Below, in pieces: positions 8,155-58,166 of a stretch of DNA of 64,000 nucleotides. The stretch is from positions 159,823 through 223,822 of the forward strand of contig JAFCDQ010000002.1 of NCBI GenBank assembly GCA_017609645.1. Direction: 5' to 3'. A program made the translations under genes and the position numbers. Under the pieces are notes generated by a model that was not told the origin of the DNA, ran no database searches, and worked only from the letters and a program-made list of their open reading frames with translations. Within the stretch, counting starts at the first letter, position 1; each line of letters starts with the position of its first letter. This DNA comes from Candidatus Woesearchaeota archaeon (GTDB lineage: Archaea; Nanobdellota; Nanobdellia; Woesearchaeales; ARS49).

Positions 8155-8436
8155 TTATGCTTTTCCTATATCTTTAACAGCATCCATCGGAGAGATTAAC
8201 TTGTACAATCTCTTTCTCGAATCATTAGGATCTAAAGAAATCTTTAACCAACCAGATTTTTTCAATCTAGAAAGAATAATACTAACATTTTCCTTTAACA
8301 AAACATCTGCTTTTTTATGATCAAACTGATTATCCTTAAATTTATTCCAAATTCTAGAATAAGCTAACATAATCCACTTAGGCAAAGGTCTAACTGACCA
8401 TTCAATCTTCCTAATATTTATTTTCTTCTTCTCCAT
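8155..8436 (-). CDS. Small winged-helix protein (paralog 1)
   Basis: PLPKWIMLAYSRIWNKFKDNQFDHKKADVLLKENVSIILSRLKKSGWLKISLDPNDSRKRLYKLISP, closely matching 14786-15028; overlaps the upstream giant ORF by 19 nt. Confidence 0.8.
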   Translation of the reverse strand: MEKKKINIRKIEWSVRPLPKWIMLAYSRIWNKFKDNQFDHKKADVLLKENVSIILSRLKKSGWLKISLDPNDSRKRLYKLISPMDAVKDIGKA

Positions 8437-36668: not shown

Positions 36669-38171
36669 TTATTTTAGCATTTTTTGTTTCATTATTTTTT
36701 TTACATTCTCGGTTTTGATAAAAATTTTCTTCATTTTTTCATAAAGTTTAATATCAAAATTAAATTTGTAAAAATTCAACGCCATTCTTAATTTAAACAA
36801 ATTCTTAAAAGAAATGCCAAGAAAGTATGCTAAAAAACCTCTTGGTTTAATTTGAGAATAGGTATAGTATTTATATACATTTTTTAATTCATTTCTATTT
36901 GAAATCCAAGGCAAAATTCTGATATCTATAAAGCCGGTTTCATTCAAAAATTGAATCCAAGATTGGGTATCTTGCGGCTCTTTAAATCCTAGTTGTTTAG
37001 CCATCGCATACATCTCAGCTCCAGGATAAGGCCTATACAATTGGGGGCCAATAACCCTCACATTCTTATACTGCTTTAAAATTTGTTTTATTAACTTTAA
37101 AGTTTCCTTCTGTTCTTTTATTTTTTCATTAGGCATCCCTATCATAAAAGAACAGGCAGCATTTATTTTGAATTTATGCAATCTTTCCAGAACTGGCAAA
37201 ACATCTTCTTTCTTTATACCTTTATTTATTATTTTATCTAAAACATTTTGACTGCCTGATTCAATCCCCATTCTTACTTCTAAACATCCGCAATCTCTTA
37301 AAAGCACTAATAGATTATCATCAATATGATTTGGCGTAAGGTAATTTAATCTTGCATTTGCAATCCACAAAAAATTAAACTTTTCTTTTTGATACACTTC
37401 GCAAAATTTTTTTACTCGGTCTATATCTATAAAAAAATTTTCATCAACAAAATCAACACACTCTAACTTAACTTTATTTAAAATATTTTTGATTTCTCTA
37501 GTGATGTTTTCTTCAGATATGCCTCTCCATTTTCTTTTATTTAACAAAGTATTAATGCAAAACGTACAAGAATAAGGGCAGCCTCTTCCTACATGAATAG
37601 GAAAAGTCTTGATAAATTTTTTCCCAACTTGAGTTAGATCATCATAATTATTTAAGTTGACTAAGTCCCAATTAGAAGAAACTTCATTGATATCAATATA
37701 TTCTCTTTGTGAATTTCTAATGATTTTGCCATTCTCATCTTTAAAATAAATTCCCCTAATTTGCTCTATTTTTGAAGAATGGTCTGCGAGATATTTTGCT
37801 ATTTCAAATAAGGTTTCCTCCCCTTCATCATAAGCGACAAAATCCACACAATCTTCTTTTAAGCACTGTTCAGCAAATAAAGTAGGGTGAATTCCCCCCC
37901 AAATAACAGGAATACCTTTCTTATGAACTATTTTTGATAATTCATAAGCACTTTTGATTTGGCTGGTCATTACTGTAAACCCTACTAAAAAACTTTTTTT
38001 CAGAATCTCATCAATATTTTTTGAGGCTTCATTAAGTTGTTCGTCATAAATTTTAACATTAAAATTTTTTTTTGCTAAATAAGAAGCTATACATAATATG
38101 CCCATGAATAAGTGCGGTTTTTCAATATTCTGATCTGCCGGGACTATCAAAGATATTTGTTTATTTTCCAT
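36669..38171 (-). CDS. B12-binding-domain radical SAM protein
   Basis: N-terminal B12-like fold (VIWGGIHPTLFAEQCL) and IHVGRGCPYSCTFCIN (CxxxCxxC). Confidence 0.92.
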   Translation of the reverse strand: MENKQISLIVPADQNIEKPHLFMGILCIASYLAKKNFNVKIYDEQLNEASKNIDEILKKSFLVGFTVMTSQIKSAYELSKIVHKKGIPVIWGGIHPTLFAEQCLKEDCVDFVAYDEGEETLFEIAKYLADHSSKIEQIRGIYFKDENGKIIRNSQREYIDINEVSSNWDLVNLNNYDDLTQVGKKFIKTFPIHVGRGCPYSCTFCINTLLNKRKWRGISEENITREIKNILNKVKLECVDFVDENFFIDIDRVKKFCEVYQKEKFNFLWIANARLNYLTPNHIDDNLLVLLRDCGCLEVRMGIESGSQNVLDKIINKGIKKEDVLPVLERLHKFKINAACSFMIGMPNEKIKEQKETLKLIKQILKQYKNVRVIGPQLYRPYPGAEMYAMAKQLGFKEPQDTQSWIQFLNETGFIDIRILPWISNRNELKNVYKYYTYSQIKPRGFLAYFLGISFKNLFKLRMALNFYKFNFDIKLYEKMKKIFIKTENVKKIMKQKMLK

Positions 38172-41670: not shown

Positions 41671-42491
41671 AATTATATGAAGATATATATAAGAAAAAAT
41701 TCAGTTTTGGAAAAAATTGGCAGTTTTTTTTAAAAAAGCTGGATAATAAAAAAATAGAATTAGCTAAAAAATCTTTAACTGATTTCACAAAATTAAAAAA
41801 TTTCAAAGATAAAACTTTTATTGATATTGGCTGTGGAAGTGGACTTTTTTCTTTATGCGCTTGTCTGCTAAATGCAGAAAAAGTTATTAGCATTGATGTA
41901 GATGAAAACAGTGTTTCTTGTGCAAAATATCTAAGAAACAAATTTAAAATAAATCCTGAAATCTGGGAGATAAAAACAGGCTCTGCCCTGGATTCAGACT
42001 TTTTAAAAAATCAAGGAGAATTTGATATAGTCTATTCTTGGGGCGTTTTACACCACACAGGATATATGTGGAAAGCCTTAGAGAATGTAATTCCTCTCAT
42101 AGCAAAAGATGGTTCATTATACCTAGCGATTTATAATGAGTTTAAAGGTTTTCCAAACTCTAAAACCTGGGCAAAAATAAAAAAATTCTATTCAAACCAT
42201 GGAAAGATAATTAGAAAAATAATTGAAATGGGCTATATTTCCTATTATATATTAGGCTTATTAGCGCATGGAAAAAATCCTATTAAATATATCAAAAATT
42301 ATGGGCAAAAAGGTGCAAGGGGAATGAGTTTTTATAGAGATGCTGTAGATTGGCTAGGAGGTTATCCTTATGAATTTGCTTCTACCAAAGAAATAATTGA
42401 TTTTTATGGGGGGAAAAATTTTAAATTGATAACTCTTAAAAAGGCAAAGAGGGAAGGTTGTAATCAATACTTATTCCAAAAAAATGATTAA
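41655..42491 (+). CDS. Class I SAM methyltransferase
   Basis: KTFIDIGCGSGLFSLCACLLNAEKVISIDVD, FDIVYSWGVLHHTGYMWKALENVIPLI. Start chosen at the second Met to reduce overlap (ORF track start 41643). Confidence 0.87.
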   Translation: MDEKLELYEDIYKKKFSFGKNWQFFLKKLDNKKIELAKKSLTDFTKLKNFKDKTFIDIGCGSGLFSLCACLLNAEKVISIDVDENSVSCAKYLRNKFKINPEIWEIKTGSALDSDFLKNQGEFDIVYSWGVLHHTGYMWKALENVIPLIAKDGSLYLAIYNEFKGFPNSKTWAKIKKFYSNHGKIIRKIIEMGYISYYILGLLAHGKNPIKYIKNYGQKGARGMSFYRDAVDWLGGYPYEFASTKEIIDFYGGKNFKLITLKKAKREGCNQYLFQKND

Positions 42492-43617
42492 AAAAAAAGA
42501 AAAAATCAAAGTTATGCTGCTCATAGATAATCATAATCTAGGAGGCGCGCAAAAATTTACATTAAATCTTTGCAAATTTTTAAACAAAAATGAATTTGAA
42601 GTGCACGTAGTATTTTGGAAAGAAGGCTTTTTCACAAAAGATTTTGAAAAAATTCAAAATATTTTTTTGCACCCTCTAAATATCGCACCTGCAAGTAATG
42701 CTGGAATTTTTGAAAAAATGAAGATTTTTCTAAAACATATGGCTGAGATTAAAAAGAAAATAAAAAACATCAGACCAAACATACTTCAAACAACATTGCC
42801 AACTTCGGATTTTTACGGGATGCTGATGAAAATTTTAAATCCTAAAATAAAATTTATTTCTAGAAAAGCAGATACTCCTTTGGTATGGAAAAAAAAATTC
42901 TTTTTGCATCTTTTTCTTAGGTTTTATTTCAAATTCCACTCTTTTTTCGTAAATAAATTTGTTTGCATATCTTTCGCTGTCAAAGACTATATGAACAAAT
43001 ATGAATTTATTTCACGAAAAAAACTTAAAGTAATTCATAATGGCGTAAACCTTGCTGATTACCAAGAGAAAAATAAAAACTATAATTTAATAAATTTTGT
43101 TTATCTTGGGAGATTAGATATTAAACATAAACGACTTGATTTGATCTTAAAAGCCGCACAAATTCTTATGAAAAAATACAGAAAAAAATTTAATTTGTTT
43201 ATTATTGGCGATGGAAAAGATCGAGAATTAATTGAAAAAATTTGCAGAAAGAATCCTGAACATATGAAATTTTTAGGCAAAAGAAAAAATATTAATGCCT
43301 CATTAGAAAAAAAACACATTCTTTTGTCCCCTTCCAAATGGGAAGCATTTGGAATCGCAAATATTGAAGCAATGGCTTGCGGGCTGCCAGTAATTGCAAC
43401 GAGAGTTGGAGGGCTCTCTGAAATAATTGTTGACAAAGAAACTGGCTTTTTGATAGAAAAAAATAATGCTGCATATTTGGCTGAAAAAATGGAATATTTT
43501 CTTTTAAATAAAGAAATGATTGAAAAAATGGGTAAAAAAGCAAGGGAAAGAGTTATTGAAAAATTCGACATCAGACAACAAGTTAAAGAATATGAAAATG
43601 TATATTTAAACGTTTAA
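42484..43617 (+). CDS. GT4-family glycosyltransferase
   Basis: MLLIDNHNLGGAQKFTLNLCKFL, VIHNGVNLADY, LLSPSKWEAFGIANIEAMACGLPVIAT. Confidence 0.92.
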   Translation: MIKKKEKIKVMLLIDNHNLGGAQKFTLNLCKFLNKNEFEVHVVFWKEGFFTKDFEKIQNIFLHPLNIAPASNAGIFEKMKIFLKHMAEIKKKIKNIRPNILQTTLPTSDFYGMLMKILNPKIKFISRKADTPLVWKKKFFLHLFLRFYFKFHSFFVNKFVCISFAVKDYMNKYEFISRKKLKVIHNGVNLADYQEKNKNYNLINFVYLGRLDIKHKRLDLILKAAQILMKKYRKKFNLFIIGDGKDRELIEKICRKNPEHMKFLGKRKNINASLEKKHILLSPSKWEAFGIANIEAMACGLPVIATRVGGLSEIIVDKETGFLIEKNNAAYLAEKMEYFLLNKEMIEKMGKKARERVIEKFDIRQQVKEYENVYLNV

Positions 43618-43621
43618 AAAA

Positions 43622-44470
43622 ATGAAAGAAAAAATAAAAGAATTATTAAATATCAAAGAGGAAGAAATAAAAAAATTTAAAATTTCTCATAAAGGATACG
43701 AAGGAGACTGCTATATTCTTTTTACTCAAAATAACTCATATTTCATAAAAAAATATTATTTAAAAGATGAGGTTAATTATGTAGAAGGATTAACTGCAAA
43801 AAAACTTTTTGATGCGGAGCTGAAGTCAATAAATTTACTCAGCACAATTAAAAATGAGGGAATGATAACACCTGAACTAGTAACATATGATTCAAAAAAC
43901 CTGATATTGGTACAGAAATATCTTAAAGGAGAAAAATTTTATAATCATTTAATCAAAAATTGCAATAAAATTTATTTCAATGCGAATTTAAAAAATATCT
44001 TTTTTTATTTCGGCCAATTCTTAGCGGAATATCATAATAAATTTTTTTATAAAGAATTTAATGGGGAACCTTTAACCAGACTTCATGGCGACTTATCGTC
44101 TCATAATATGACATTCATGAGAACCTCTCAAATATTCTTATTTGATCCTTCTGTAATTCAAGGCAGCATTTATATAGATCTGGCAAAGGCATTTCTTATT
44201 TTTTATCCTCTAAACTTTTTTTTAAATTTTATAATTAGAAAAAGCAAAATGAATTTACTCAAAAACTTTTTCTTTGAAGGATATATGAAAAATTCTAAAT
44301 TCAGATTAGATAAAAATATCTTAAAGAAATATATTATTTCAAAGCTAGATGATGAAAAAAGATATTCCACTCAAACTCATATTTATAAATTAAAGAAAAT
44401 TCTCATAAACTCTTATATAAATCATCTGATTAAAAAAATTGAAGAAAATAAAATTAATATTTTTGAATAA
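43622..44470 (+). CDS. APH/LPS-kinase-like small-molecule kinase
   Basis: TRLHGDLSSHNMTFMRTSQIFLFDPSVIQGSIYIDLAKAF (HGDxxxxN ... DP) with an upstream ATP-lobe-like region. Confidence 0.75.
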   Translation: MKEKIKELLNIKEEEIKKFKISHKGYEGDCYILFTQNNSYFIKKYYLKDEVNYVEGLTAKKLFDAELKSINLLSTIKNEGMITPELVTYDSKNLILVQKYLKGEKFYNHLIKNCNKIYFNANLKNIFFYFGQFLAEYHNKFFYKEFNGEPLTRLHGDLSSHNMTFMRTSQIFLFDPSVIQGSIYIDLAKAFLIFYPLNFFLNFIIRKSKMNLLKNFFFEGYMKNSKFRLDKNILKKYIISKLDDEKRYSTQTHIYKLKKILINSYINHLIKKIEENKINIFE

Positions 44471-44487
44471 GGAACTGCTGGGAAAAT

Positions 44488-45840
44488 ATGGACAAGATCA
44501 AATATCTGAATAAAGAATTTGTCTCGGAAGAGACAATTAGGAATTTAAATAGACTTAAAAATAATGAAAATATAGAAAATATATACTGTTTGATTGAATC
44601 CCACATTAAAAAATTTTCAGAAACTCCCTCAAGCATATGTATAAAAACAAACAGTAAAAAAATATATCCAGATTATTCAAGTTCTCTCAACTGCGGTATG
44701 GGGTTGCTGCAGACAAATCTTAATATTTGTGATTTGAGAAATAAAATAGTGAAAATATTTCAAGAGATAAACAACAAAACAACATTGAGTATTATTAAAA
44801 GGTACCTGGGAAGAAAAGAAGTCAATAAAAAAGAATTAGAAGAGATATTCTATAAAGGTATTGAAGCTATGCCTTCAAGATACAACAAAATAAACAATGC
44901 ATTCGGCAATGAAGGGAATGTAGTGAAAGATAAAGAAGTTAAAAAAGATGAGATAATAAAAGCTATTCCTAACTTTTTATATAGAGGCGCATTAAGAGAA
45001 TTAGGAAAAAATGCCGGCGGCAATCACTTTATTGAAATGCAAATCATTGATGAGATATTTGACCATAAAATAAAAGCTAAAAAAGGAGATGTTTATTTCA
45101 TGATTCATCTTGGAACAGGATATTTAGGCGATAATTTTAATAATGTATACTTAAAGAGAAAAAATAATTCTCTAAAGACAACCTTTGCTATTGGTCCAAA
45201 ATTCTTCAACATACAAAAACTATTCTTTTTGATAAAAACATTTGGAATATATTATATAATAAGAAATTTTAAGAAATTATTCAAAAAGAGTAAATTAAAA
45301 GGGCTTGAAAACAACACAAAAAGAGCAAAATACTACATCAATGGAAGCCATGCAATTATGAATTTTGGATATGCCTGGAGATACGCAACTTATTCAAAAA
45401 TAATTGATGTATTGAAGAAAGTAAGTGAAAAAGAATTAAAATATAAATTATTGCTTGATAGATCACATAATTCAATTTTTCAAGAAAAAGAAAACTATTA
45501 TTATCTAAGAAACTGCTGCAAACTTAAAAAAACAGGAGATCTTTTCATTCTGCCAGGAAATTATTGCAATAATTCATATTTATGCCAAACGCTTCCAAAA
45601 TTAAAGAAAATAGGATTCAACATAGACCATGGATTAGGTATGCTTTTAAAGAAGGACAAAGAAAAAGATCTTACTTTTATGTATAAATGCAAAAGAACTA
45701 GAATCATTAGCGGAAAAATAAAATACAAAAAAATCAAACATGAAAAATCACAAAAAATAAATGAGGTCATCAAAAAACTAGAAAAAGAAGGATATTTCAA
45801 AATACTTCTTACATTGAAGCCAATCGCGAGTCTGAAATAA
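44488..45840 (+). CDS. Divergent RtcB-like protein (RNA ligase fold) in a glycan locus
   Basis: Ordered RtcB-like motifs: SLNCGMGLL (vs DINCGVRLL), GKNAGGNHFIEMQ, MIHLGTGYLG (vs HSGSRGLG), INGSHAIMNFGYAWRY, LLDRSHNSIF (vs DVSHNI), LFILPGNYCNNSYLC (vs PGSMGTASYV), IDHGLGM (vs CHGAGR). Confidence 0.8.
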   Translation: MDKIKYLNKEFVSEETIRNLNRLKNNENIENIYCLIESHIKKFSETPSSICIKTNSKKIYPDYSSSLNCGMGLLQTNLNICDLRNKIVKIFQEINNKTTLSIIKRYLGRKEVNKKELEEIFYKGIEAMPSRYNKINNAFGNEGNVVKDKEVKKDEIIKAIPNFLYRGALRELGKNAGGNHFIEMQIIDEIFDHKIKAKKGDVYFMIHLGTGYLGDNFNNVYLKRKNNSLKTTFAIGPKFFNIQKLFFLIKTFGIYYIIRNFKKLFKKSKLKGLENNTKRAKYYINGSHAIMNFGYAWRYATYSKIIDVLKKVSEKELKYKLLLDRSHNSIFQEKENYYYLRNCCKLKKTGDLFILPGNYCNNSYLCQTLPKLKKIGFNIDHGLGMLLKKDKEKDLTFMYKCKRTRIISGKIKYKKIKHEKSQKINEVIKKLEKEGYFKILLTLKPIASLK

Positions 45841-45841
45841 A

Positions 45842-46762
45842 ATGAAGGAATGGAAAAATTTATTGGGGAACTCAGTTGACTCAAAAATAGTTTCGATAAG
45901 ATTATTTAAAAAATGCCCCTGCTCTTGCATATATCTCGCTAAAGATGAAAAAAATAGAGAATATATTATAAAGAAATACAAAACAAGAGATTCAGACATT
46001 AAGCAAGAATTTGAGAATCAAAAAAAAGCATATGAAATATTCCAAAATTATTCAAATAATGTTGCAGTCCCTACACCAATAACTTTCTCAAAGAAACACA
46101 ACATTCTCGCTATGGAATATATCAAAGGGATAACATTAACAGAATATTTGAGAAATAATAACCTTTATTTGAAAGGAAGAAAATTAAAGAAAATATATTA
46201 TTTAATTGGCGGGGCATTACAGCATTTGCATAAAAATGCTGTCTGGAAAACAAAAGAGTTTATTGATGGAAAAATGCATCTTACAATAAATAGAGTAAAG
46301 CTTCAGCCAATTTATAAGGAATATCTTAAGTTAATTAAAAAAAATAACGAAAAATCTCAATTCCAAAGAATACATGGTAATTTCAAAACAGAAAATATAT
46401 TGATTAGTAACTCGAAGATATATTTTATAGACTTTGCTTATGATTATAAAGGTTCAATATATTATGATCTGGCCAAATTAATTGAATCCTCTTTCACAGC
46501 AGGGTTTAGAAATATTTATTTTCCAGCATATAATTTCCTAAATTTAAATAATTTTAAAAGGGCTCTGATTAAAGGATATTTCAAAGAAGAAAGAGTTAAT
46601 GCAAAAATATTTAATTATTATCAGGTGCTGTTTAAGATTTATGATTTAAGCTGCTGCAAATCAAGAAAAATATCCTTCATTTTTCTCAAAAATATATATA
46701 ATTTTAGAATAAAAAAATTGATAAGAAAGAGTTATACTTTAGCAAAAATGGAGATAGAATGA
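45842..46762 (+). CDS. APH/protein-kinase-like kinase (second kinase flanking RtcB-like)
   Basis: FQRIHGNFKTENILISNSKIYFIDFAYDYKGSIYYDLAKLIES (HGNxxxxN ... DFA); MEYIKGITLTEYL hinge-like segment. Confidence 0.75.
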   Translation: MKEWKNLLGNSVDSKIVSIRLFKKCPCSCIYLAKDEKNREYIIKKYKTRDSDIKQEFENQKKAYEIFQNYSNNVAVPTPITFSKKHNILAMEYIKGITLTEYLRNNNLYLKGRKLKKIYYLIGGALQHLHKNAVWKTKEFIDGKMHLTINRVKLQPIYKEYLKLIKKNNEKSQFQRIHGNFKTENILISNSKIYFIDFAYDYKGSIYYDLAKLIESSFTAGFRNIYFPAYNFLNLNNFKRALIKGYFKEERVNAKIFNYYQVLFKIYDLSCCKSRKISFIFLKNIYNFRIKKLIRKSYTLAKMEIE

Positions 46763-48510
46763 AAAAAATTAAATATAAATATCCTTACATTAATGGAATA
46801 AGAATCTCTGGTAAATTAAATGATTTGCCTATAGAATTGCATAATTATCTAACTATTGCTAACTTCAACTATTTTTATCTTCTCGACTATTTCGTAAAAA
46901 GAACAAACAAACAATTCAAAAAAAAATGCGGATTAGATTTGATAATCTTCTTTCTTGATTATCTTGACACTCATATCGATGACGACATTGAATTAGTTGC
47001 AGAAGGCAATTTTGCAGAAGAATTCAAAAATTGTGTAAAATTAGTCTGTGAAACAAAAAAACATAATCTAACACTCAAAAAAATCAAACCAGACTGCGGT
47101 TTTTTTGCAAAAATAAAAACAAACCTATTTCACAACCCATTTATGCTAAGAAACTTAATCAAATTAAGACTCACAATAAGATACTTTCTTGGCTTAATAA
47201 GAAGAATTATGGGAAAAACCAACAAAAATGATGTGGAAGTGATTTTCTTATCAAATATGAGGTTCTCAAGGAAAAATGAACATAACAATGCGCTATTTGG
47301 ATCTTTAATAAAAAAACTAGATGAAACGAAAATAAAAAATAAAGTCATAAGATATGATCCTCCCAGATATTACTTTGAGTTGAAGCGGTTTATAAAAGAA
47401 TTCCTGCTGCAAAAAGAGAGCTATCTAGGAGATTATTATAGAGTTTCTCATTTTTTTAAAATAAAAAAGAATATGAAACTTTTCAAAAGAAAATGGAATC
47501 AAATAAAAAACTATGCTGATTTAAAAAATATCTTCAACTATAAAGGATACAATTATTACAGCATAATAAAGCCAAGATTAGAACTTATATTCAACTCCAT
47601 AAGCTATTTTGCAATCGACAATAAACTCATAACAAATGAAATAATAAAAAAAGAAAAATTCAAAGCAATAATTATAGATAGTGAAAGCAGCCTCTATGGG
47701 AAAGGATTCATGCTTAACCTAAAGGATAAAGAATCAAAAGTTATGGCATTATCACATGAACTGATTTATCCAGGATGTGATCATATTTGCAGAAAAAATG
47801 ATTTAATTAAAAACAAAAAAAATATTTATTGGAGACCCTTGCCTGATATAAAATGTGTATGGGGAGAATTTGCAAAAAATATCTTATTAGAAGACTGTAA
47901 TTATAAAGATGAATTAATCAAAATAACAGGAAATCCCAAATTTGATTATTTGTTCAATAAAAAATATGACAAAAAAGAAATTTTAGAGAAGTACAAGCTA
48001 AAAGAAAATAAAAAGAAAATATTAATTGCCTCAAACAGAAGCTGGCAACTTGCGCCTTTTATTTCTGAACTTTTATCAAAAACAAATGAATATGAAGTAA
48101 TACTAAAACTACACCCAAAAGAAGACCTTAATTCAATTAAAAAATACTTTGAAAGAATTCCTGTTAAAATAATAGAAGGAATCGCAGACATAAATGAACT
48201 GCTAAATGTATCTGACATTGCAGTAACAGAAGCATCAACAGTAGGTTTTGAAGCAATGCTGCTTGGAAAAATTGTATTTATCTTAACAAGAGATAAAGCG
48301 GAACCAAGAGGAATGCCTTATATGCAGTATAAAGCAGCAATTAAAATAAACTCCGCAAAAAATCTTTTAAATGAATTAAACACGTTAAAAAACAAGGAAC
48401 ACGAGAAAAAACTAATTGAAAATATGAATTATTTTACAAATCACATAAATTATGGAAATGATGGAAAAGCATCAGAAAGAGTGGTGGCGGAAATAAAGAA
48501 ATTCCTCTAA
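46759..48510 (+). CDS. GT-B fold, CDP-glycerol glycerophosphotransferase/TagF-like or capsule-type transferase
   Basis: KITGNPKFDYLF, ILIASNRSWQLAPFISELL, VILKLHPKEDL, DIAVTEASTVGFEAMLLGKIVFIL. Confidence 0.7.
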   Translation: MKKIKYKYPYINGIRISGKLNDLPIELHNYLTIANFNYFYLLDYFVKRTNKQFKKKCGLDLIIFFLDYLDTHIDDDIELVAEGNFAEEFKNCVKLVCETKKHNLTLKKIKPDCGFFAKIKTNLFHNPFMLRNLIKLRLTIRYFLGLIRRIMGKTNKNDVEVIFLSNMRFSRKNEHNNALFGSLIKKLDETKIKNKVIRYDPPRYYFELKRFIKEFLLQKESYLGDYYRVSHFFKIKKNMKLFKRKWNQIKNYADLKNIFNYKGYNYYSIIKPRLELIFNSISYFAIDNKLITNEIIKKEKFKAIIIDSESSLYGKGFMLNLKDKESKVMALSHELIYPGCDHICRKNDLIKNKKNIYWRPLPDIKCVWGEFAKNILLEDCNYKDELIKITGNPKFDYLFNKKYDKKEILEKYKLKENKKKILIASNRSWQLAPFISELLSKTNEYEVILKLHPKEDLNSIKKYFERIPVKIIEGIADINELLNVSDIAVTEASTVGFEAMLLGKIVFILTRDKAEPRGMPYMQYKAAIKINSAKNLLNELNTLKNKEHEKKLIENMNYFTNHINYGNDGKASERVVAEIKKFL

Positions 48511-48581: not shown

Positions 48582-49844
48582 ATGAGAAAAAAAATAAATG
48601 ATGTCATAAACTTATTAAGCAGAAAAATAGGAATTAATCTTTATGATTGGACAAAGGGAGGTCTTTTTGTGGGTCTGCCTTTAATTTTAAATTCTTTATT
48701 TGCTGTCTTAATATCTATAATTTTTACAAGGATTATTTCACAAAGCATTTTTGGAGAATACCAATTTTTCCTTGTTATACTCAGCATGTTTTTTTTATTT
48801 TCTTTGCCGGAAATGGACACTGCTTTAATTCGATCTGTAGCAAAAAAACATGACAAATCATTTGACAAAGCAATTAAAATTCGATTTCTATGGTCTCTAA
48901 TAGGTTCAGCAATCCTGTTTGGCGTTTGTCTTTATTTAAAGTCCATAAATCAAGTAGCATGGAAATATTATTTTTACTCTGCATTATTCTTTCCTTTTTT
49001 CTATTCGTTCAGATCAGCTTTTTCTTTTCTTATAGGGAAACAAAAATTTTCTCTTTATTCAAAATATTTTAGTTCACATATAATTCTGGTAAATCTCTTG
49101 TTTATAACTATCATTTGCTTATTTAAAAATCTAAACATCATAATTTTAGCTTATTTAGCAGTAAACTCTTTGAGTTTTTTTATTTTTTATAAAATAATCA
49201 GAAAGAAATTCTTAAAAAAGATAAAAAAAACAAAAGAAGATAAAGGCCTTTTTAAATTTGGTTTCCATCTTACTTCAATCTCAATAATACCTATGCTGTT
49301 TGCTCGCGCAGATAAAATCATATTAACTTCTTTTTTAGGTTTTGAAGCATTAGCTATTTATGTTATTGCATCATCATTTCCTAGCCAAATAAGATTAATC
49401 ACAAAACCTTTTGTCAAGATGCTTCTTCCTAAATTATCCGCAAGCAAAGATGCTGAAAAAACATTTAAATTCATAAGAAGTAAATTAATTTATATCATAC
49501 TTGTTCCAGCTTTTATAATTTCCACAGGAGCTTTGCTAATTCCTTATGTTATAAAAATTCTCTTTCCAAGCAGCTATCTCATATCAATTCCTTACGCACA
49601 ACTATTGTTCTTTGCTTATTTATTAACATTTAGTACACATATGTTTAATCAATTTCTAATTTCCCAAAAGAAGACAAAAAGTTTATTCAAAATCAGCTTA
49701 ATAACTAATATAGCAAATATATTATTTTTGTTTCTTTTGATTCCTTTTTTAAATCTTTTAGGAGTGGTCCTATCCAAAATTTTTACAAATTATTTGATTT
49801 TTGGACTCAACTTTTATTATTCTTGGAAGGAATCAAAAATTTAA
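48582..49844 (+). CDS. Wzx-type polysaccharide flippase (MOP/MATE superfamily)
   Basis: About 12 hydrophobic helices; IIFTRIISQSIFGEYQFFLVILSMF and FARADKIILTSFLGFEALAIYVIASSF. Confidence 0.9.
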   Translation: MRKKINDVINLLSRKIGINLYDWTKGGLFVGLPLILNSLFAVLISIIFTRIISQSIFGEYQFFLVILSMFFLFSLPEMDTALIRSVAKKHDKSFDKAIKIRFLWSLIGSAILFGVCLYLKSINQVAWKYYFYSALFFPFFYSFRSAFSFLIGKQKFSLYSKYFSSHIILVNLLFITIICLFKNLNIIILAYLAVNSLSFFIFYKIIRKKFLKKIKKTKEDKGLFKFGFHLTSISIIPMLFARADKIILTSFLGFEALAIYVIASSFPSQIRLITKPFVKMLLPKLSASKDAEKTFKFIRSKLIYIILVPAFIISTGALLIPYVIKILFPSSYLISIPYAQLLFFAYLLTFSTHMFNQFLISQKKTKSLFKISLITNIANILFLFLLIPFLNLLGVVLSKIFTNYLIFGLNFYYSWKESKI

Positions 49845-49982: not shown

Positions 49983-50576
49983 ATGATCGCTATTGTTAAT
50001 CATGGAACAGGAAATCTTAAGAGTGTTAAGAATATGCTAGATTATTTAGGTGTAGATTCAATCATCACATCAAATCCTGAAGACTTATTAAAAGCAGACA
50101 AAGTCATACTGCCAGGCGTTGGAGCATTTGGTCAGGTAATGAACAGTTTAAGAGAAAAAAAGCTCGATTTTGCAATCAAAAAAGTAATAGAAAACAAGAA
50201 ACCATTTCTAGGCATATGCGTTGGATTTCAAGTTTTGTTTGAAGAAAGCGAAGAAAGCCCTGGAATAAAAGGACTGGGAATATTCAAAGGAAAAGTCAAA
50301 AAATTCAAACAAGGAAAAGTCCCTCCCACAGGATGGAACAAAATTTTAGCAAAAAAAGAAAACAGTTATGGAGAAGGATATGTTTATTATGTTAATGCAT
50401 ACTACCCCTGCCCAGAAAATAAAAAAAACATTTTATTTGAATCAGCCCATCACATTCCTTTTTGCGGAGGATTTGAAAAAGATAATGTTCTGGGCGTGCA
50501 GTTTCATCCAGAATTAAGTGGGAACTGGGGAATAAATTTTTATAAAAAATGGTTAAAAGGTGAGAAAAATGGTTGA
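49983..50576 (+). CDS. hisH: HisH-like glutamine amidotransferase subunit for sugar amidation
   Basis: MIAIVNHGTGNLKSVKNML, KVILPGVGAFG, FLGICVGFQVLFE, GVQFHPELSG; next to WbpG- and HisF-like genes. Confidence 0.9.
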   Translation: MIAIVNHGTGNLKSVKNMLDYLGVDSIITSNPEDLLKADKVILPGVGAFGQVMNSLREKKLDFAIKKVIENKKPFLGICVGFQVLFEESEESPGIKGLGIFKGKVKKFKQGKVPPTGWNKILAKKENSYGEGYVYYVNAYYPCPENKKNILFESAHHIPFCGGFEKDNVLGVQFHPELSGNWGINFYKKWLKGEKNG

Positions 50577-51783
50577 TTTTGAATTACCTAAAATTGAATT
50601 TAAATTTGATAAAGAAGTTGAAATAAAAAAAAAAGATGTTATACAAAAATACAATCTTCCAATAGATATTAAATTTTGTAAAAAATGCGTAATATCTAAT
50701 CAAAGACCTAGAATAATATTTGATAAAGAAGGTGTGTGCAGCGCATGTAGATTTAATGAAAAGAAAAATAAAGATATAGACTGGGAAAAAAGAGAACAAG
50801 AACTAAGAGCGCTGTGTGACAAACATCGAAGCAAAGACGGAAGGTGGGATGTAATAGTGCCTTGTAGCGGAGGAAAAGACAGTGCATTTGTGGCACACAT
50901 GTTAAAACACAAATATGGCATGCATCCTTTAACAGTAACATGGGCACCTCATAAATACAGCGACATTGGATGGAAAAACTTCCAAAGATTCATACATGCA
51001 GGATTTGATAACATACTAGGCACTCCAAATGGTATCGTTCATAGAAAATTAACAAGACTTGCATTTGAAATACTAGGCGATCCATTTCAGCCATTTATAT
51101 ATGGTCAAAAAGCATTTCCAATAAGAATGGCAACAAAACTAAGAATACCTCTGATCATGTACGGAGAGAATGGAGAAGTGGAGTATGGAGGAGATGATAA
51201 AAATGCTGATGTTCCAAGCCACAATGTAACTGAAGACATGACCAAACATTACTTCAGTGGAATAGATGTTGACTACTGGAAGCAATATGGATTCACCGCA
51301 GAAGACCTTCACTTTTATAAAATACCCTCTGTAGAAGAAATGCAAAAAATTGGAATCCAATGCCACTTCTTTGGATATTACTACAAATGGGTTCCGCAAG
51401 AAAACTACTATTGTGCATGTAAACATACAAACTTTGAAGCAAATCCTGAAGGGAGATCTGAAGGGACCTATTCCAAATACGCAAGTCTGGACGATGAAAT
51501 AGACGGCTTCCATTATTTTTTATCCTATATTAAATTTGGCATTGGCAGAACAACAGCAGATGCAGCACATGAAATAAGAGATGAACATATAACAAGAGAA
51601 GAAGGTGTAAGTTTAGTGAGAAAATTTGATGGAGAATTTCCTAGAAAACATTTCAAAACCTTTCTCAAATACACAGGCTTGACTGAAGAAAGAGTCACAG
51701 AGGTAATTGACAGCTGGAGATCACCTCATTTATGGGAAAAAGATGCTAACGGAAAGTGGAAACTAAAACATCAAATAGAGTAA
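50560..51783 (+). CDS. N-acetyl sugar amidotransferase (WbpG/PseA-like)
   Basis: KFCKKCVISNQRPRIIFDKEGVCSACRFNEKK, DVIVPCSGGKDSAFVAHML. Confidence 0.92.
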   Translation: MRKMVDFELPKIEFKFDKEVEIKKKDVIQKYNLPIDIKFCKKCVISNQRPRIIFDKEGVCSACRFNEKKNKDIDWEKREQELRALCDKHRSKDGRWDVIVPCSGGKDSAFVAHMLKHKYGMHPLTVTWAPHKYSDIGWKNFQRFIHAGFDNILGTPNGIVHRKLTRLAFEILGDPFQPFIYGQKAFPIRMATKLRIPLIMYGENGEVEYGGDDKNADVPSHNVTEDMTKHYFSGIDVDYWKQYGFTAEDLHFYKIPSVEEMQKIGIQCHFFGYYYKWVPQENYYCACKHTNFEANPEGRSEGTYSKYASLDDEIDGFHYFLSYIKFGIGRTTADAAHEIRDEHITREEGVSLVRKFDGEFPRKHFKTFLKYTGLTEERVTEVIDSWRSPHLWEKDANGKWKLKHQIE

Positions 51784-51790
51784 ATAGGAG

Positions 51791-52555
51791 TTGAAATTGC
51801 TTTGTGAGAGAATTATTGCAAGATTAGATGTAAAAGGATCTAAGTTAATAAAAGGAATTCATTTAGAAGGTCTAAGAATCATCGGAGACCCTCATATCTA
51901 TGCTAAAAAATACGAAGAATCTGGCGCAGATGAAATAATCTTTATTGATACAGTTGCAAGCCTATATGGTAGAGAAAATTTAGTTAAAATAGTAGAAAAA
52001 ACTTCTAAAAAGATATTTATCCCTCTTACTGCAGGAGGAGGAGTTAGAACAATAGAAGACATTCAAGCACTCCTAAATGCAGGGGCAGACAAAGTAGCAA
52101 TAAACACCGCAGCAGTTAATGATCCTTCATTAATAACGCGTGCTGTAAAAAAATTTGGCAGCCAATGTATAGTCGTATCAGTAGATGCAAAAAGAAAAGA
52201 GGGCAAATGGGAAGTTTATACAGAGAATGGGAGAGAACCTTCTGGTAAAACTGTCTTTGAATGGATTAAACAAGTAATTGAACTGGGAGCGGGAGAGATA
52301 TTTTTAACATCCATAGATAATGAAGGTACAAAACAAGGATTTGACCTAGAATTAATAAAAAAAACAGCAGCATTCTGCACAGTCCCTCTAATAATTGCAG
52401 GAGGTGCAGGAAATATTGACCATATCAAAGAAATATTTGCTGTCAATATTGCAGGAGTTGCATTAGCATCTATCCTACACTATAATACTCTTTCTATAAA
52501 CGAAATAAAAGAAAATCTAAAGGATTTTGCCAACATAAGGCCAAAAAGAATTTAA
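51791..52555 (+). CDS. hisF: HisF-like cyclase/ammonia-channelling subunit (TTG start)
   Basis: [68 protein letters not shown]. Confidence 0.9.
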
Positions 52556-52622
52556 ATTCACAAGGTATTTAAACAAATTTACTCGATAAAAACTTAAAAA
52601 TATAGCTAGAGGCGGTTTATTT

Positions 52623-54443
52623 ATGTTGAAAATATTATCAATCATTCCTGCGCGAGGCGGATCAAAAAGATTGCCTGGCAAAAATATAAAACAATTAGCA
52701 GGTAAACCATTAATTGTATATACTATAGAGTCTTCTTTAAATTGTAAATTTATTAATAGAACAGTCGTCTCAACGGATTGTGAAGAAATTGAGAAAATAT
52801 CAATAAAAGCAAATGCAAAAGTTATAAAAAGACCTAATTACCTGGCAAGAGATGATTCAAAAACAATTGATGTGATAAAACATACTTTAGCAGTTCTAGA
52901 AAAAGAAGAGAATTACTCTCCTGATGTTATTGTAATGTTACAACCTACTTCACCTCTAAGGAATTTGGAAGATATAAAAAACGCCATTGAATTGTTTTAT
53001 AAAGAATCTTGTGCAAGCGTCATAAGTGTTACTGAAAAAAATCCTTATTGGAATTTTAAAATTGAAAATGATTATTTAAATCCCCTCTTCGGATGGGTTT
53101 ATCTAATAGATAAAAGAAAACAAGATATGCCTAAAACATATGCCGTAAATGGAGCAATTTACATCACAACTAAGAAAAATTTATACAAAAATAATTCTTT
53201 CTTTAACGAAAGAATCACGCCATACATCATGCCTCAAGAAAGAAGCATTGATATCGACGAAAAAATTGATTTTGAATTTGTTGAATTTCTAATGAAGAAA
53301 AATAGCGAACTAAAAAAACTGACAAAAATTGAAGACAAGAAAATTGGAAATAATCAACCTTGTTTTATAATAGCAGAAGCAGGAGTGAATCATAATGGAA
53401 ATATAGCTTCAGCAAAAAAATTAATTGATGCTGCAAAAGAAGCAGATGTGGATGCTGTCAAATTCCAAACATTTAAAGCAGAATTAATAGTTACAGAATC
53501 AGCAGATCAGGCAGAGTATCAGAAAGAAACTGCAAAAGATGATTCTCAATTTGCAATGCTAAAAAAATTAGAGCTTAAAGAAGAGCATTTTAAAGAGCTA
53601 AAAGAGTATTGTGATGACAAAGGCATAATTTTTCTTTCAACCTCTCATTCTGATAACTGGAGTGTAGATATTCTTGACGATTTGGTTGCAGCCTACAAAA
53701 CAGGATCAGGCGATATAAATAATCTTCCAATCTTAAAATACATGGCCAAAAAAGGCAAACCTCTTATCGTTGCCACAGGCACAGCCAATCTTGAAGAAGT
53801 AAAAGAAGCAAAAGAAGCTATTGAATCAGAAGGCAATAAAGATATTATACTTTTACATTGTACAACAATGTATCCTTCTCCTGAGAATAAGGTCAATCTA
53901 AGAGCGATGGAGACTATGAGAAAAGAATTAGGAGGACTTATTGGATATTCTGATCATACAACAGGACTTGAAACACCAATAATTGCTGCGTGCATGAACC
54001 CTGTGCTGTATGAGAAGCATTTTACTTTGGATAAGAATATGGAAGGCCCTGACCATAAGGCTTCTTTAAATCCAGAAGAACTAAAGGCAATGGTAGAGGC
54101 AATTCGCTATGTTGAAGAAAATAAAATAACTGATCCTTATGTTGCATTCAAAAGATTAAATGAGGAAAAAGGTTATTCTCTTAATGTGGCATTGATTGAA
54201 ACAATTCTTGGAAAAGCCGAGAAAGTTCCTGAGCCAGAAGAATTAGAAATAGCGAAAGTTGCAAGAAAAAGTATAGTTGCGATTAAGGATATAAAAGAAA
54301 GTGAGGAATTGACTGAAGAAAATGTTGGGATAAGAAGACCTGGTGAAGGTTTAGCGCCAAAGTATTACGATGAGTTAATTGGAAAAAGAGCTAAAAAGAA
54401 TATAAACAAAGATACATATGTTAAATTAGAGGATATTGAATGA
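52623..54443 (+). CDS. Fusion: N-terminal CMP-nonulosonate cytidylyltransferase plus NeuB-type synthase with SAF domain
   Basis: N-terminus SIIPARGGSKRLPGKNIKQLAGKPLIVYTIE, MLQPTSPLRNLEDI; C-terminus FIIAEAGVNHNGNIASAKKLIDAAKEADVDAVKFQTF, GYSDHTTGLETPIIA, SAF tail RKSIVAIKDIKESEELTEENVGIRRPGEGLAPKYY. Confidence 0.93.
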   Translation: MLKILSIIPARGGSKRLPGKNIKQLAGKPLIVYTIESSLNCKFINRTVVSTDCEEIEKISIKANAKVIKRPNYLARDDSKTIDVIKHTLAVLEKEENYSPDVIVMLQPTSPLRNLEDIKNAIELFYKESCASVISVTEKNPYWNFKIENDYLNPLFGWVYLIDKRKQDMPKTYAVNGAIYITTKKNLYKNNSFFNERITPYIMPQERSIDIDEKIDFEFVEFLMKKNSELKKLTKIEDKKIGNNQPCFIIAEAGVNHNGNIASAKKLIDAAKEADVDAVKFQTFKAELIVTESADQAEYQKETAKDDSQFAMLKKLELKEEHFKELKEYCDDKGIIFLSTSHSDNWSVDILDDLVAAYKTGSGDINNLPILKYMAKKGKPLIVATGTANLEEVKEAKEAIESEGNKDIILLHCTTMYPSPENKVNLRAMETMRKELGGLIGYSDHTTGLETPIIAACMNPVLYEKHFTLDKNMEGPDHKASLNPEELKAMVEAIRYVEENKITDPYVAFKRLNEEKGYSLNVALIETILGKAEKVPEPEELEIAKVARKSIVAIKDIKESEELTEENVGIRRPGEGLAPKYYDELIGKRAKKNINKDTYVKLEDIE

Positions 54444-55576
54444 GAAAAATATTATATATTTCAGGAACAAGAGCGGATTTTGGTTTGATGAGGTCTGTTC
54501 TTGATTCGATAAAATCTCATCCCGAACTAGACCTAGAAATTATTGCCACAGGAATTCATTTAATGGAGGAATTTGGTTATACTATAAAAGAGATAGAATA
54601 TAATTTTAAGGTTCATAAAGTTGAGGCGACATTTAAAGAAGATAACAAAGAGTCAATGACTTTTTTTATAGGCGAATTTATACAAAAATTTACAAAAAAA
54701 ATCAAAGAAATTCAGCCAGATATAATTTTAGTTTTAGGTGATCGAGCTGAGATGCTTGCTGCAACAGTCGTTGGAGCTTATCTTGGCATTCCTGTTGCTC
54801 ATGTACAAGGGGGGGAGGTAACAGAAACAATTGACGAAGCTTCAAGGCATGCGATAACTAAGCTTGCTAATATTCATTTTCCTGCTACTGAAAAAAGTTC
54901 TGAAAGGATATTGAAGATGGGCGAGAATAAAGATTATGTCTTCGTTACTGGGGCTCCTGGTTTAGATCCTATTTTAAATAAAAAACTGATGTTACAAGAA
55001 GAAGTATTTCGAAAATATTCTCTAGATATTAATAAGCCTTTAATCTTAGTTATTCAACATGCGGTTAGTCAGGAAATTAATGAAGCAGATTATCAAATGA
55101 AACAAACAATGGAAGCGATTAAAGATAAAAGGATACAAACAATAATAACTTATCCGAATGCAGATGCGGGAGGAAGGAGGATAATTAAAGTAATTGAAGA
55201 TTATAGGAGTTATCCTTTTATCTATATTTTTAGAAATATAGATCATCTTGATTTTTTAAGCTTAATGAAAAATGCTTCACTTATGATTGGGAACTCAAGT
55301 TGCGGTATAATTGAAGCACCTTCTTTTAAACTTCCTTTTATTAATTTAGGAACCAGGCAAGAAGGTAGAGAAAGAGCAAATAATGTGATTGATGTTGATT
55401 ACAATAAAGAAGAGATAGTTAAAGCTGTTGATAAAGCTTTGTCCCTCGGATTCATAGAGTTTTTAAAAGACTGTAAAAATCCCTATGGTGATGGAAAAAC
55501 AGGACCAAGAATAGCCAAAATTCTGGCTGAGATAACGATAAATAAAGATCTTTTGCAAAAAAAGATGGCATATTAA
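54440..55576 (+). CDS. neuC: UDP-N-acetylglucosamine 2-epimerase, hydrolysing (NeuC/LegG-like)
   Basis: KILYISGTRADFGLMRSVL, LVLGDRAEMLAATVVGAYLGIPVAHVQGGEVT, MIGNSSCGIIEAPSF. Confidence 0.93.
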   Translation: MRKILYISGTRADFGLMRSVLDSIKSHPELDLEIIATGIHLMEEFGYTIKEIEYNFKVHKVEATFKEDNKESMTFFIGEFIQKFTKKIKEIQPDIILVLGDRAEMLAATVVGAYLGIPVAHVQGGEVTETIDEASRHAITKLANIHFPATEKSSERILKMGENKDYVFVTGAPGLDPILNKKLMLQEEVFRKYSLDINKPLILVIQHAVSQEINEADYQMKQTMEAIKDKRIQTIITYPNADAGGRRIIKVIEDYRSYPFIYIFRNIDHLDFLSLMKNASLMIGNSSCGIIEAPSFKLPFINLGTRQEGRERANNVIDVDYNKEEIVKAVDKALSLGFIEFLKDCKNPYGDGKTGPRIAKILAEITINKDLLQKKMAY

Positions 55577-55577
55577 A

Positions 55578-55994
55578 ATGGCAGAGGATAGATTTAAGGA
55601 CTGGATTCCTCCAATAATAGAAGAAGGTAAATTAACCAGATGGAATTGGATAGTGCAAGGAGTTGAAGGTTTGAAATTAGGCAAGAAAACGGATATTGGT
55701 GCTTTTACATACATCAATGCAAAATATGGAGTAGAAATTCAAGATCATGTTCAAATTGGAAGTCATTGTTCTATTTACAGCCAAAGTACTATTGACAATA
55801 AAAAAGGCAGGGTTATTTTAAAGAGAAAGTGTAAAATCGGTAGTCACAGTGTAATAATGCCAGGGATAACAGTAGGAGAGAATTCAATTGTAGGTGCTTT
55901 TAGTTTTGTCAATAAAGACATTCCAGATAATGTTATAGTAGCAGGCGTTCCTGTAAAGATGATTAAAAGCATAGAAAAGAAAAAAGAAGAATGA
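55578..55994 (+). CDS. Left-handed beta-helix acyltransferase (LegH/WbpD-like)
   Basis: Hexapeptide repeats: IGAFTYINAKYGVEIQDHVQIGSHCSIYSQST, IGSHSVIMPGITVGENSIVGAFSFV. Confidence 0.88.
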   Translation: MAEDRFKDWIPPIIEEGKLTRWNWIVQGVEGLKLGKKTDIGAFTYINAKYGVEIQDHVQIGSHCSIYSQSTIDNKKGRVILKRKCKIGSHSVIMPGITVGENSIVGAFSFVNKDIPDNVIVAGVPVKMIKSIEKKKEE

Positions 55995-57160
55995 ATTGGA
56001 AAATACCTTTATTTAAAATTTATTGGGAAGAAGATGACATTGAAGCCGTTAGTAAAGTAATCAAAAGCGGAACTTTTTGGTCATCAGGACCTGAAATAGA
56101 AAAATTCGAAAAAAAAATAGCAGATTTTGTAGGAACTAAATTTGCTTTGGCTTTTAATTCAGGAACAACTGCTTTACATACTTTGCTCCTCGCGCATGAT
56201 ATTAAGGATAAAGACGTAATTGTTCCTTCATTTACTTTTATTGCAACAGCTAATGCTGTTCTTTTAGCAGGAGGAACACCAATTTTTGCTGAATCAGAAT
56301 CAGAAACACTAGCTTTAGATATAGATGATGTCAAAAAGAAAATTACAGATAATACGAAAGCAATAATAGTAGTACATTACGCTGGATATCCTGCAAAATA
56401 CGTAGAAGAACTAAGGAAAATGGCTGATGAAAAAAATATTTTATTAATTGAAGATGCTGCAGAAGCATTAGGCTCCAGTATCAAAGAAAAAAAAGTAGGC
56501 ACATTTGGACATTCCGCAATATTCAGCTTTTGTCAAAATAAAATAATTACAACAGGAGAAGGAGGGATGATTGTAACGAATTCTAAAGCAATTTATGAGA
56601 AAGCAAAGCACTTAAGATCTCATGGACGTGTTGAATTTGAAGAAGTTAATTATTTCTCTTCAAAAAAAGATAACGATTACATTCTAGAAGGAAACAATTT
56701 TAGAATATCGTCAATTTCAGCAGCTTTAGGAATTTCTCAATTAAATAAAATTGAAAAAATCATAGAAATGCGAAGAAAAAATGCTCATTATTTAAACCAA
56801 GAACTCTCAAAAATAAAAGGAGTTGCTGTTTTGCATGAATTAAAAAATCATTATTCTGTTTTTCAATTTTATAGCATTCTTCTTAAGGATGAAGAAACTA
56901 AAAAATCTCTTCAGAATTATTTGAATGATAAAGGAATAATGGCTAAAGTTTATTTTAATCCAGTTCATCTTAAAACATTATATAAGGATAAATTTGGTTA
57001 TAAAGAATACGACTTGCCTAAGACAGAAAACTTATCTAAAAGAATACTAACGCTTCCACTATATCCAAATCTTAAAAAAGAAGAATTAGAAAATATGATC
57101 CAAGAAATCAAAAATTTTTTTAATATGAAAAACCCCCCCTCAAACAGAGAGGTATCATAA
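55991..57160 (+). CDS. DegT/DnrJ/EryC1/StrS aminotransferase (LegC-like)
   Basis: GTKFALAFNSGTTALHTLLLAHDI, IEDAAEALGSSIKEKKVGTFGHSAIFSFCQNKIITTGEGG. Confidence 0.93.
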   Translation: MNWKIPLFKIYWEEDDIEAVSKVIKSGTFWSSGPEIEKFEKKIADFVGTKFALAFNSGTTALHTLLLAHDIKDKDVIVPSFTFIATANAVLLAGGTPIFAESESETLALDIDDVKKKITDNTKAIIVVHYAGYPAKYVEELRKMADEKNILLIEDAAEALGSSIKEKKVGTFGHSAIFSFCQNKIITTGEGGMIVTNSKAIYEKAKHLRSHGRVEFEEVNYFSSKKDNDYILEGNNFRISSISAALGISQLNKIEKIIEMRRKNAHYLNQELSKIKGVAVLHELKNHYSVFQFYSILLKDEETKKSLQNYLNDKGIMAKVYFNPVHLKTLYKDKFGYKEYDLPKTENLSKRILTLPLYPNLKKEELENMIQEIKNFFNMKNPPSNREVS

Positions 57161-57164
57161 ACAA

Positions 57165-58166
57165 ATGAAAAAAACATTCAAGAATAAAGACATACTAGTA
57201 ACAGGAGGCTGTGGCTCTATTGGCTCAGAATTAATAAGACAACTCCTAACTTATAAACCAAAAAGAATCAGAGTTTTTGATCAAAACGAATCAGGACAAT
57301 TTCATCTTCAAAAAAATCTAAAATCAAGCTGCATTCGTTCTTTAGTTGGAAATATTAGGGACAAAGAAAGAGTAAAAAGAGCAATGGACGGTGTTGATAT
57401 TGTTTTTCATGCAGCTGCGCTAAAACATGTTCCTTTATGTGAATACAATCCTTTTGAAGCAGTTTATACAAATGTTTTTGGCACTCAAAATTTAATAGAT
57501 GCCGCAAGAGAAGAAGGAGTCTCTAAATTCATATCAATCAGCACTGATAAAGCAGTCAATCCTATTAATACAATGGGTGCCACAAAATTATTAATGGAAA
57601 AACTTGTAACAAATGCTAATATAGGAAAATCAAAAACAAAATTTGCCTGCGTTAGATTTGGCAATGTTCTTGCTTCTGAGGGTTCAGTTATGCCTTTCTT
57701 TAAAAAACAAATAAAAGAAGGAGGTCCCGTAACAATAACATCTCCTGAAATGACGCGATTTTTCATGTCAAAAAAAGAAGCAATTAATTTAATTTTGAAA
57801 ACTGCTAAGATTATGAATGGGCGAGAAATATTTATTCTAAAGATGGATAGTTTTAAAATTATGGATCTGGCTGAAATAATGATAGAAGAACTAGCTCTAA
57901 AACTTGGACACAATCCAAAAGACATCAAAATAAAAATTATCGGAATAAGACCTGGAGAAAAAATAAACGAATCTTTAATAACTGAAGAAGAATTTTTAAA
58001 TGTAAAAAAAATAGAAAATATGTTCATCATAAAAGACCAATTAAATATTCCTCATAGTTATAACATAAATAAATATCAAAAAGAAAATTCTTATAATTCG
58101 AAGAATATTAAAATTTTAAACAAACAAGAAATAAAGGAATTATTGAAAACACATAAACTAATCTAA
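57165..58166 (+). CDS. UDP-sugar 4,6-dehydratase (CapD/PseB/LegB-like)
   Basis: DILVTGGCGSIGSELIRQLL, FHAAALKHVPLCEYNPFEAVYTNVFGTQNL, STDKAVNPINTMGATKLLMEKL. Confidence 0.93.
   Translation: MKKTFKNKDILVTGGCGSIGSELIRQLLTYKPKRIRVFDQNESGQFHLQKNLKSSCIRSLVGNIRDKERVKRAMDGVDIVFHAAALKHVPLCEYNPFEAVYTNVFGTQNLIDAAREEGVSKFISISTDKAVNPINTMGATKLLMEKLVTNANIGKSKTKFACVRFGNVLASEGSVMPFFKKQIKEGGPVTITSPEMTRFFMSKKEAINLILKTAKIMNGREIFILKMDSFKIMDLAEIMIEELALKLGHNPKDIKIKIIGIRPGEKINESLITEEEFLNVKKIENMFIIKDQLNIPHSYNINKYQKENSYNSKNIKILNKQEIKELLKTHKLI

Follow-up and report, generated by a model that had tools for sequence, protein, structure and literature searches.

Why is a relative of RtcB, to our knowledge known only as a nucleic-acid ligase, encoded between two kinase genes in the midst of a surface-glycan locus? 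This question is raised by four adjacent open reading frames (ORFs) at positions 43622-48510 of a 64,000-nucleotide stretch of DNA from Candidatus Woesearchaeota archaeon (assembly GCA_017609645.1, contig JAFCDQ010000002.1), which as a whole is called the window here. A model that had read the letters alone (the original prediction) took these ORFs for a kinase, an RtcB-like protein, a second kinase and a TagF-like transferase, followed by a flippase, and proposed that phosphates set by the kinases are guanylylated and joined to yield a phosphodiester-linked glycan. What it had observed about the locus was confirmed and is now stronger than originally stated, and the chemistry it proposed is plausible. 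Our analysis suggests that the RtcB-like enzyme was recruited from RNA repair to act on phosphorylated sugars or lipids. For the whole chain, comprising an RtcB clade that left RNA, a kinase-made phosphate, its activation by a His-linked nucleotide (probably GMP) and a phosphodiester-linked glycan or glycolipid as product, we estimate a probability of about 0.4. The four ORFs are arranged as originally described, on the + strand and separated by 17 nt, 1 nt and then a 4-nt overlap:

43622..44470, + strand: kinase 1, an APH/choline-kinase-like small-molecule kinase (Pfam Fructosamin_kin, E = 6.5e-5; HGD...N...FDP motif intact)
44488..45840, + strand: divergent RtcB-family protein of 450 aa (Pfam RtcB and fold match)
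45842..46762, + strand: kinase 2, APH/choline-kinase/Bud32-like (Pfam APH, E = 1.6e-11; nearest solved relative choline kinase 4r77)
46759..48510, + strand: GT-B-type protein, its C-terminal half resembling CDP-glycerol glycerophosphotransferase or surface-carbohydrate glycosyltransferases

A divergent RtcB beside a canonical copy

The protein encoded at 44488-45840 matches the Pfam RtcB model PF01139 with an E-value of 6.3e-31 and 108.5 bits, the cut-off being 27. Employing phmmer against the PDB delivered nine sequences, all of them RtcB or RtcB-homologue entries (best E 1e-8). The fold was checked as well: an AlphaFold model computed from 21 window and locus sequences reached a pLDDT of 81.7 and a pTM of 0.83, and all 16 significant matches of this model in a PDB fold search were RtcB structures (E 8e-21 to 2e-17, TM 0.62-0.70), while the best match outside RtcB gave only E 0.45. 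Identity to the RtcB structures in the structural alignments is 14-18%. The ORF encodes a genuine, very divergent member of the RtcB family by descent.

It is not the only RtcB of its genome. A canonical RtcB is separately encoded there (563 bits, compared to 108 for the window copy) and groups in the tree with the RtcBs of related archaea; all four other carrier genomes checked possess a canonical copy too. In this respect the protein resembles the RtcB2-type RNA-repair paralogues (TIGR03073, NF007153), which likewise are second RtcBs beside a canonical one and whose models give its best NCBIfam scores. However, these scores (75.8 and 55.7 bits) fall far below the cut-offs of 407 and 271.8, and the release-factor partner of RtcB2-type systems is not found among the neighbours of the window gene, which lies in a glycan context instead. 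Judged by the features tested, the RtcB-like protein should not be filed as an RNA ligase. As a side observation, a further APH-family gene (L096:3133-4098) is located two genes from the canonical RtcB gene of the window genome.

Among 98 related genomes a single full-length relative was detected (398.7 bits, 46-47% identity). It belongs to another Woesearchaeote, G040 (JABGUJ010000004), from a different family of the same order. A scan of the genome-contig collection with the RtcB-like protein of the window alone gave no match, while a two-row profile recovered the G040 relative and three Omnitrophota proteins, along with other RtcBs. Collection scans and searches of the phylum together yielded eight Omnitrophota members, so that the clade discussed below comprises ten: the window protein, the G040 protein and these eight. 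Such genes are rare, occurring in 2 of 377 genomes of the window's phylum and in 7 of the 386 drawn in each Omnitrophota search; none was found in two further phyla (243 + 47 = 290 genomes). A single branch separates the ten members from the other rows, with an SH-aLRT support of 99 in a 75-row tree and with 100/99 (bootstrap/SH-aLRT) in a 30-row tree, but long branches weaken these trees and the residues are consequently the better witness of the clade. An origin of the archaeal pair by duplication of archaeal canonical RtcB was rejected with a constrained tree (p-AU 4.5e-6). Of a viral source there is no sign either: among 56 RtcB loci on viral contigs, the 15 that rank best by score difference are each scored better by the general profile than by that of the clade. 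Plasmids yielded two Paenibacillus RtcBs only.

Two other observations concern RtcB frames in related genomes. The G093 frame (L025, G093:C11:8834-9349) carries two in-frame TGA codons, to be read as recoding, a pseudogene or a sequence error. In G007, G015, G020, G023 and G052 the RtcB frames span ~950-990 aa, about double the usual length, as expected of an intein-containing RtcB.

Kinases and glycan genes around the clade

All ten members lie in a glycan locus with a kinase gene within two genes, and these kinases are of three unrelated types, namely APH/Bud32-like, HprK-like and thymidylate-kinase-like (TMPK-like). Since kinases of unrelated fold replace one another at the same place and have a phosphorylated product in common, the substrate of the RtcB-like enzyme would be the phosphate made by the kinase. 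That the protein works in a glycan pathway is very probable, and that it acts on the kinase product is probable.

The order kinase, RtcB, kinase is conserved in G040, where the genes run kinase 1, methyltransferase, RtcB-like, kinase 2, glycosyltransferases, a Bud32/WaaY-like kinase, a nucleotidyltransferase-TMPK-like fusion and a flippase; NeuA, NeuB and NeuC genes lie on the opposite side, and nonulosonic-acid genes occur in the window too. The pairing of RtcB with a kinase extends to all eight Omnitrophota. A TMPK-like gene follows directly 3' of the RtcB-like gene in four loci (L039, L089, L090, L091), while an HprK-like P-loop domain is present in four, free in L037 and L038 and fused to a GT4 glycosyltransferase in L092 and L093; the TMPK-like and HprK-like genes could be placed no more finely than in a superfamily, which does not define their substrates. 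APH-like genes occur in L038, besides the HprK-like one, and in both archaea. Four Omnitrophota share the order GT4, RtcB-like, TMPK-like, YbhN-type flippase-like, GT-C, whole in three of them and running off the contig in L039.

Counted over the clade loci, kinases account for 13 of the 36 genes that lie no more than two places away from the RtcB-like one, compared to at least 2 of 94 farther out (Fisher test, p 6e-7; p 3e-5 if 5 of 94 is assumed), a count that is partly biased because the kinase families were first noticed next to the RtcB-like gene. The 36 near neighbours include 9 GT4, 4 GT2, 4 TMPK and 3 Hpr_kinase_C matches, and Archease is not among the 25 families listed for them. In contrast, the 116 neighbours of other RtcBs included 16 matches to Archease, along with tRNA synthetases and RlaP, and the list of their 25 commonest families contains neither glycosyltransferases nor kinases. 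Canonical RtcB thus keeps company with Archease and tRNA genes, the clade with glycan and kinase genes.

This context bears on whether the protein might still be an RNA enzyme, serving repair or conflict, that came to its present position incidentally. The rest of the family is RNA-specific, and surface-glycan loci are variable islands that gather foreign genes. However, all ten genes of the clade are found within glycan operons that include a kinase, in two domains of life and often with overlapping genes; neither Archease, RtcA, PrfH nor a tRNA gene was seen beside any of the RtcB-like genes; and the arginine that binds RNA phosphates is lost in six of the ten. We therefore regard an RNA enzyme as improbable here. 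In the window itself no RNA-processing gene adjoins the RtcB-like gene, as originally noted, and its surroundings comprise glycosyltransferases, methyltransferases, a flippase and nonulosonic-acid genes.

The two flanking ORFs of the window had been named an APH-like kinase and a second kinase. Kinase 1 is weak as a single sequence, yet by profile comparison it matches kinase 2 at 96.7%. It shares K, E, D157, N162 and D175 with its G040 orthologue and retains the HGD...N...DP motif; its AlphaFold model is of low quality (pLDDT 49.8). For kinase 2, the fold relative is choline kinase 4r77 (E 0.009). Judging by these comparisons, both are true kinase homologues. For the second kinase this holds with a qualification, as its catalytic loop reads HGN instead of the expected HGD in both species that carry it (window 45842-46762; L033:9719-10552). 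The remaining kinase residues are kept, which is compatible with a pseudokinase or with altered catalysis.

Kinases that phosphorylate glycan sugars have precedents in the WbdD-type kinase/methyltransferase chain terminators and the lipopolysaccharide (LPS)-core kinases WaaY and KdkA. G040 recalls both, with its WaaY-like kinase and with the methyltransferase between kinase 1 and the RtcB-like gene, but we know of no RtcB-like partner in such systems. The four loci with HprK-like domains resemble HPr-rel-A/B systems (TIGR04352/TIGR04355) in having HprK-related kinase domains beside or fused to glycosyltransferases. However, they score 17-35 bits against a cut-off of 200, and the RtcB-like partner is new.

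An active site changed on one side

Residue numbers are those of P. horikoshii RtcB (PhRtcB) as given by the alignment, and human residues were matched to them through motifs. Three sites of the window gene were placed by alignment:

44608..44610, + strand: codon of Lys41, the clade-specific lysine at PhRtcB Gly69
44683..44694, + strand: codons 66-69 (SLNC), with Ser66 at the position of the metal ligand Asp95 and Cys69 as the retained metal ligand Cys98
45628..45630, + strand: codon of His381, aligned to the guanylylated nucleophile His404

With the canonical RtcB RNA ligases (P. horikoshii PH1602, human RTCB) the clade shares the fold and eight active-site residues that are invariant in all ten members: Cys98, Asn202, His203, Glu206, His234, His329, His404 and Lys480. 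They include the metal ligands Cys98, His203, His234 and His329 and the nucleophile His404. Other positions differ. Position 69 is Lys in ten of ten clade members and Gly in 63 of 63 other RtcBs (HxG to HxK), while Asp95, a ligand of the second Mn2+, is replaced by S, N, A, R or G throughout the clade and is D in 63 of 63 others. Asn330 and Lys351 are present in 65 of 65 other RtcBs; within the clade, the former is kept by two of ten, the archaeal pair including the window, and the latter by none of the eight Omnitrophota and at most one of ten overall, the archaeal alignment being uncertain at this point. Arg238 is kept in four of ten and is Gly in six, the window copy among them. Furthermore, the spacing from His234 to the AAN motif is 72-96 aa, compared to 46-68 in canonical RtcB. 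An amphipathic membrane helix in the insert after His234 was considered and dropped, since its hydrophobic moment is no better than that of shuffled sequences (42% as high).

The roles of these positions are known from human and zebrafish RTCB. In the human enzyme, the Mn2+ in touch with the GTP gamma-phosphate is bound by D119 (Asp95), C122 and H227 (PMC10944509; for metal roles see also PMC10630183), and once activation has taken place the freed phosphate is held by D119, N354 (Asn330) and K375 (Lys351), with Archease adjacent (PMC10944509). Arg238 has as its equivalent an arginine that binds the phosphates of RNA and that the zebrafish complex cannot do without (PMC12135372). Read in this light, the clade altered the part of the site that serves the leaving group, Archease and RNA, and retained the part for the nucleophile and the nucleotide. 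Lys69 may take the place of the second metal. The acid found at position 236 in seven of eight Omnitrophota (Asp or Glu), considered as a replacement for Asp95, occurs in neither archaeon and could accordingly compensate for it in part at most.

From this pattern a route can be envisioned in which an RtcB-family clade departed from RNA metabolism and took up the assembly of glycans or glycolipids. The adjacent kinase would place a phosphate monoester on a sugar, a polyol or a lipid-linked glycan. The RtcB-like enzyme would take up this phosphate in the old RtcB site, with a metal at Cys98/His234/His329, the nucleotide near Glu206/Lys480 and His404 as nucleophile. A covalent His-nucleotide step, probably with GMP, is suggested because His404, Glu206 and Lys480 are retained; a hydroxyl would then receive the activated phosphate, so that the glycan gains a phosphodiester link, and the flippase would export the product. 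We put forward phosphodiester formation by His-nucleotide chemistry as a tentative proposal. The more specific idea, a two-enzyme route to phosphodiester-linked glycans or glycolipids without a nucleotide-sugar phosphate donor, in which a dedicated kinase supplies the monoester and a ligase of RtcB fold, its leaving-group pocket remodelled, activates this by way of a His-nucleotide and links it to a hydroxyl, is somewhat more doubtful.

Several points weigh against this route. The loss of Asp95 in all ten members is the chief argument against full RtcB chemistry and should cripple guanylylation, given that the human D119A variant guanylylates weakly and does not ligate (PMC10944509). Degeneration has gone furthest in the archaeal pair, which has no residue aligned to Tyr451, a changed Arg408 and a shortened Lys351 segment; in the window copy, residues aligned to Tyr451, Arg408 and Lys351 are all missing. 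The HGN loop of kinase 2, the bias in the kinase count, the superfamily-level kinase assignments and the long branches of the tree, mentioned above, count on the same side. Of what was first proposed, the glycan role and the coupling to kinases are supported, better than the letters alone could show, while guanylylation and phosphodiester formation remain a matter of inference.

The same residues leave room for three other functions. In the first, the enzyme would only activate or cap, attaching GMP to the kinase-made phosphate to give an NDP-type donor for a neighbouring glycosyltransferase or TagF-like transferase, with the second RtcB step kept and the third lost. On the nucleotide side E206, H404 and K480 persist, whereas six of ten members no longer have the RNA-acceptor Arg238, and in the window a GT-B/TagF-like gene follows. 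However, no Glyphos_transf family is among the commonest neighbours of the other members, and loss of the gamma-phosphate pocket harms activation as much as ligation, so we consider this unlikely.

Second, a site with one metal might serve to hydrolyse some glycan or lipid intermediate at a phosphodiester or cyclic phosphate, with no nucleotide involved. Such a repurposed phosphoesterase would explain the invariance of C98, H203, H234 and H329 in a site that has given up its triphosphate-binding residues, and canonical RtcB itself hydrolyses 2',3'-cyclic phosphate (PMC10944509). It fits poorly with the equally invariant His404, Glu206 and Lys480, which serve the nucleotide, and gives no clear reason for a kinase partner; its probability is low. 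Third, a non-catalytic paralogue could act as a scaffold or regulator of a glycan complex, as the universal loss of Asp95, the loss of Lys351 in all Omnitrophota and the HGN loop of kinase 2 might indicate. However, a dead scaffold would not need eight active-site residues that are invariant across two domains of life at 22-26% identity, and a new invariant lysine arose within the same motif. This, too, is hardly probable.

Ligation of a kinase-made phosphate, the reading we prefer, would have wider consequences. A clade that exists beside a canonical copy, lies in sugar-coat operons and has kinases of unrelated type as partners suggests that the family moved from RNA into the chemistry of carbohydrates or lipids. 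If the two-enzyme route is true, its ligase would be the first enzyme of RtcB fold known to act outside nucleic acids, common to distantly related bacteria and archaea. The proposed product would be of the same kind as that of CDP-glycerol/TagF and Stealth-type phosphotransferases, which use a nucleotide-sugar or CDP-polyol donor and have other folds; in the present case their part would fall to a kinase and an RtcB fold, possibly as a new way of making phosphodiester-linked surface polymers. With the Asp gone in every member, the clade is moreover an experiment of nature on the second metal site in RtcB. In the literature searched, mostly excluding subscription papers, no earlier report linking RtcB to glycans or polysaccharides or to Omnitrophota was found. 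Omnitrophota are a small-genome lineage with a suspected host-dependent life (PMC10066038). Small genomes and suspected host dependence are common to the Woesearchaeota and Omnitrophota carriers, and surface glycans matter for attachment.

Glycan genes in the rest of the window

Further genes of the region accompany the four-ORF module:

42484..43617, + strand: GT4 glycosyltransferase just upstream of kinase 1 (Glycos_transf_1, E = 6e-39)
48582..49844, + strand: Wzx-type polysaccharide flippase, as originally predicted (Polysacc_synt, E = 1.4e-14)
49983..58166, + strand: nonulosonic-acid genes, comprising a HisH/WbuX/HisF amidation set, a NeuA-NeuB fusion, NeuC, an acetyltransferase, a PseC-like and a PseB-like gene

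The GT-B-type protein at 46759-48510 had been taken for a TagF/CDP-glycerol-like transferase. It does match Glyphos_transf (4.1e-18), but the alignment covers residues 370-579 only, in its C-terminal part, and the BFO_1060 glycosyltransferase model matches too (6e-23). By these profile matches, TagF chemistry is not established for it. No CDP-polyol synthesis gene was identified among the genes scanned. Another Glyphos_transf match (5.5e-7) lies at 59672-61249 on the - strand, adjoining a B12-radical SAM gene and near a second NeuB.

Other genes deserve mention in their own right. At 31361-34387, in the same glycan region, an STT3-type oligosaccharyltransferase (AglB-like) is fused to a C-terminal FKBP-type prolyl isomerase domain. 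A protein of 2123 aa (8418-14789, - strand) combines three Laminin_G_3 lectin-like domains with a GH123 N-terminal domain and is possibly a surface adhesin or glycan-binding protein. Finally, B12-binding radical SAM genes occur in several of the glycan loci that bear an RtcB-like gene (window 36669-38171; L089:10406-11890; L091:5176-6639).

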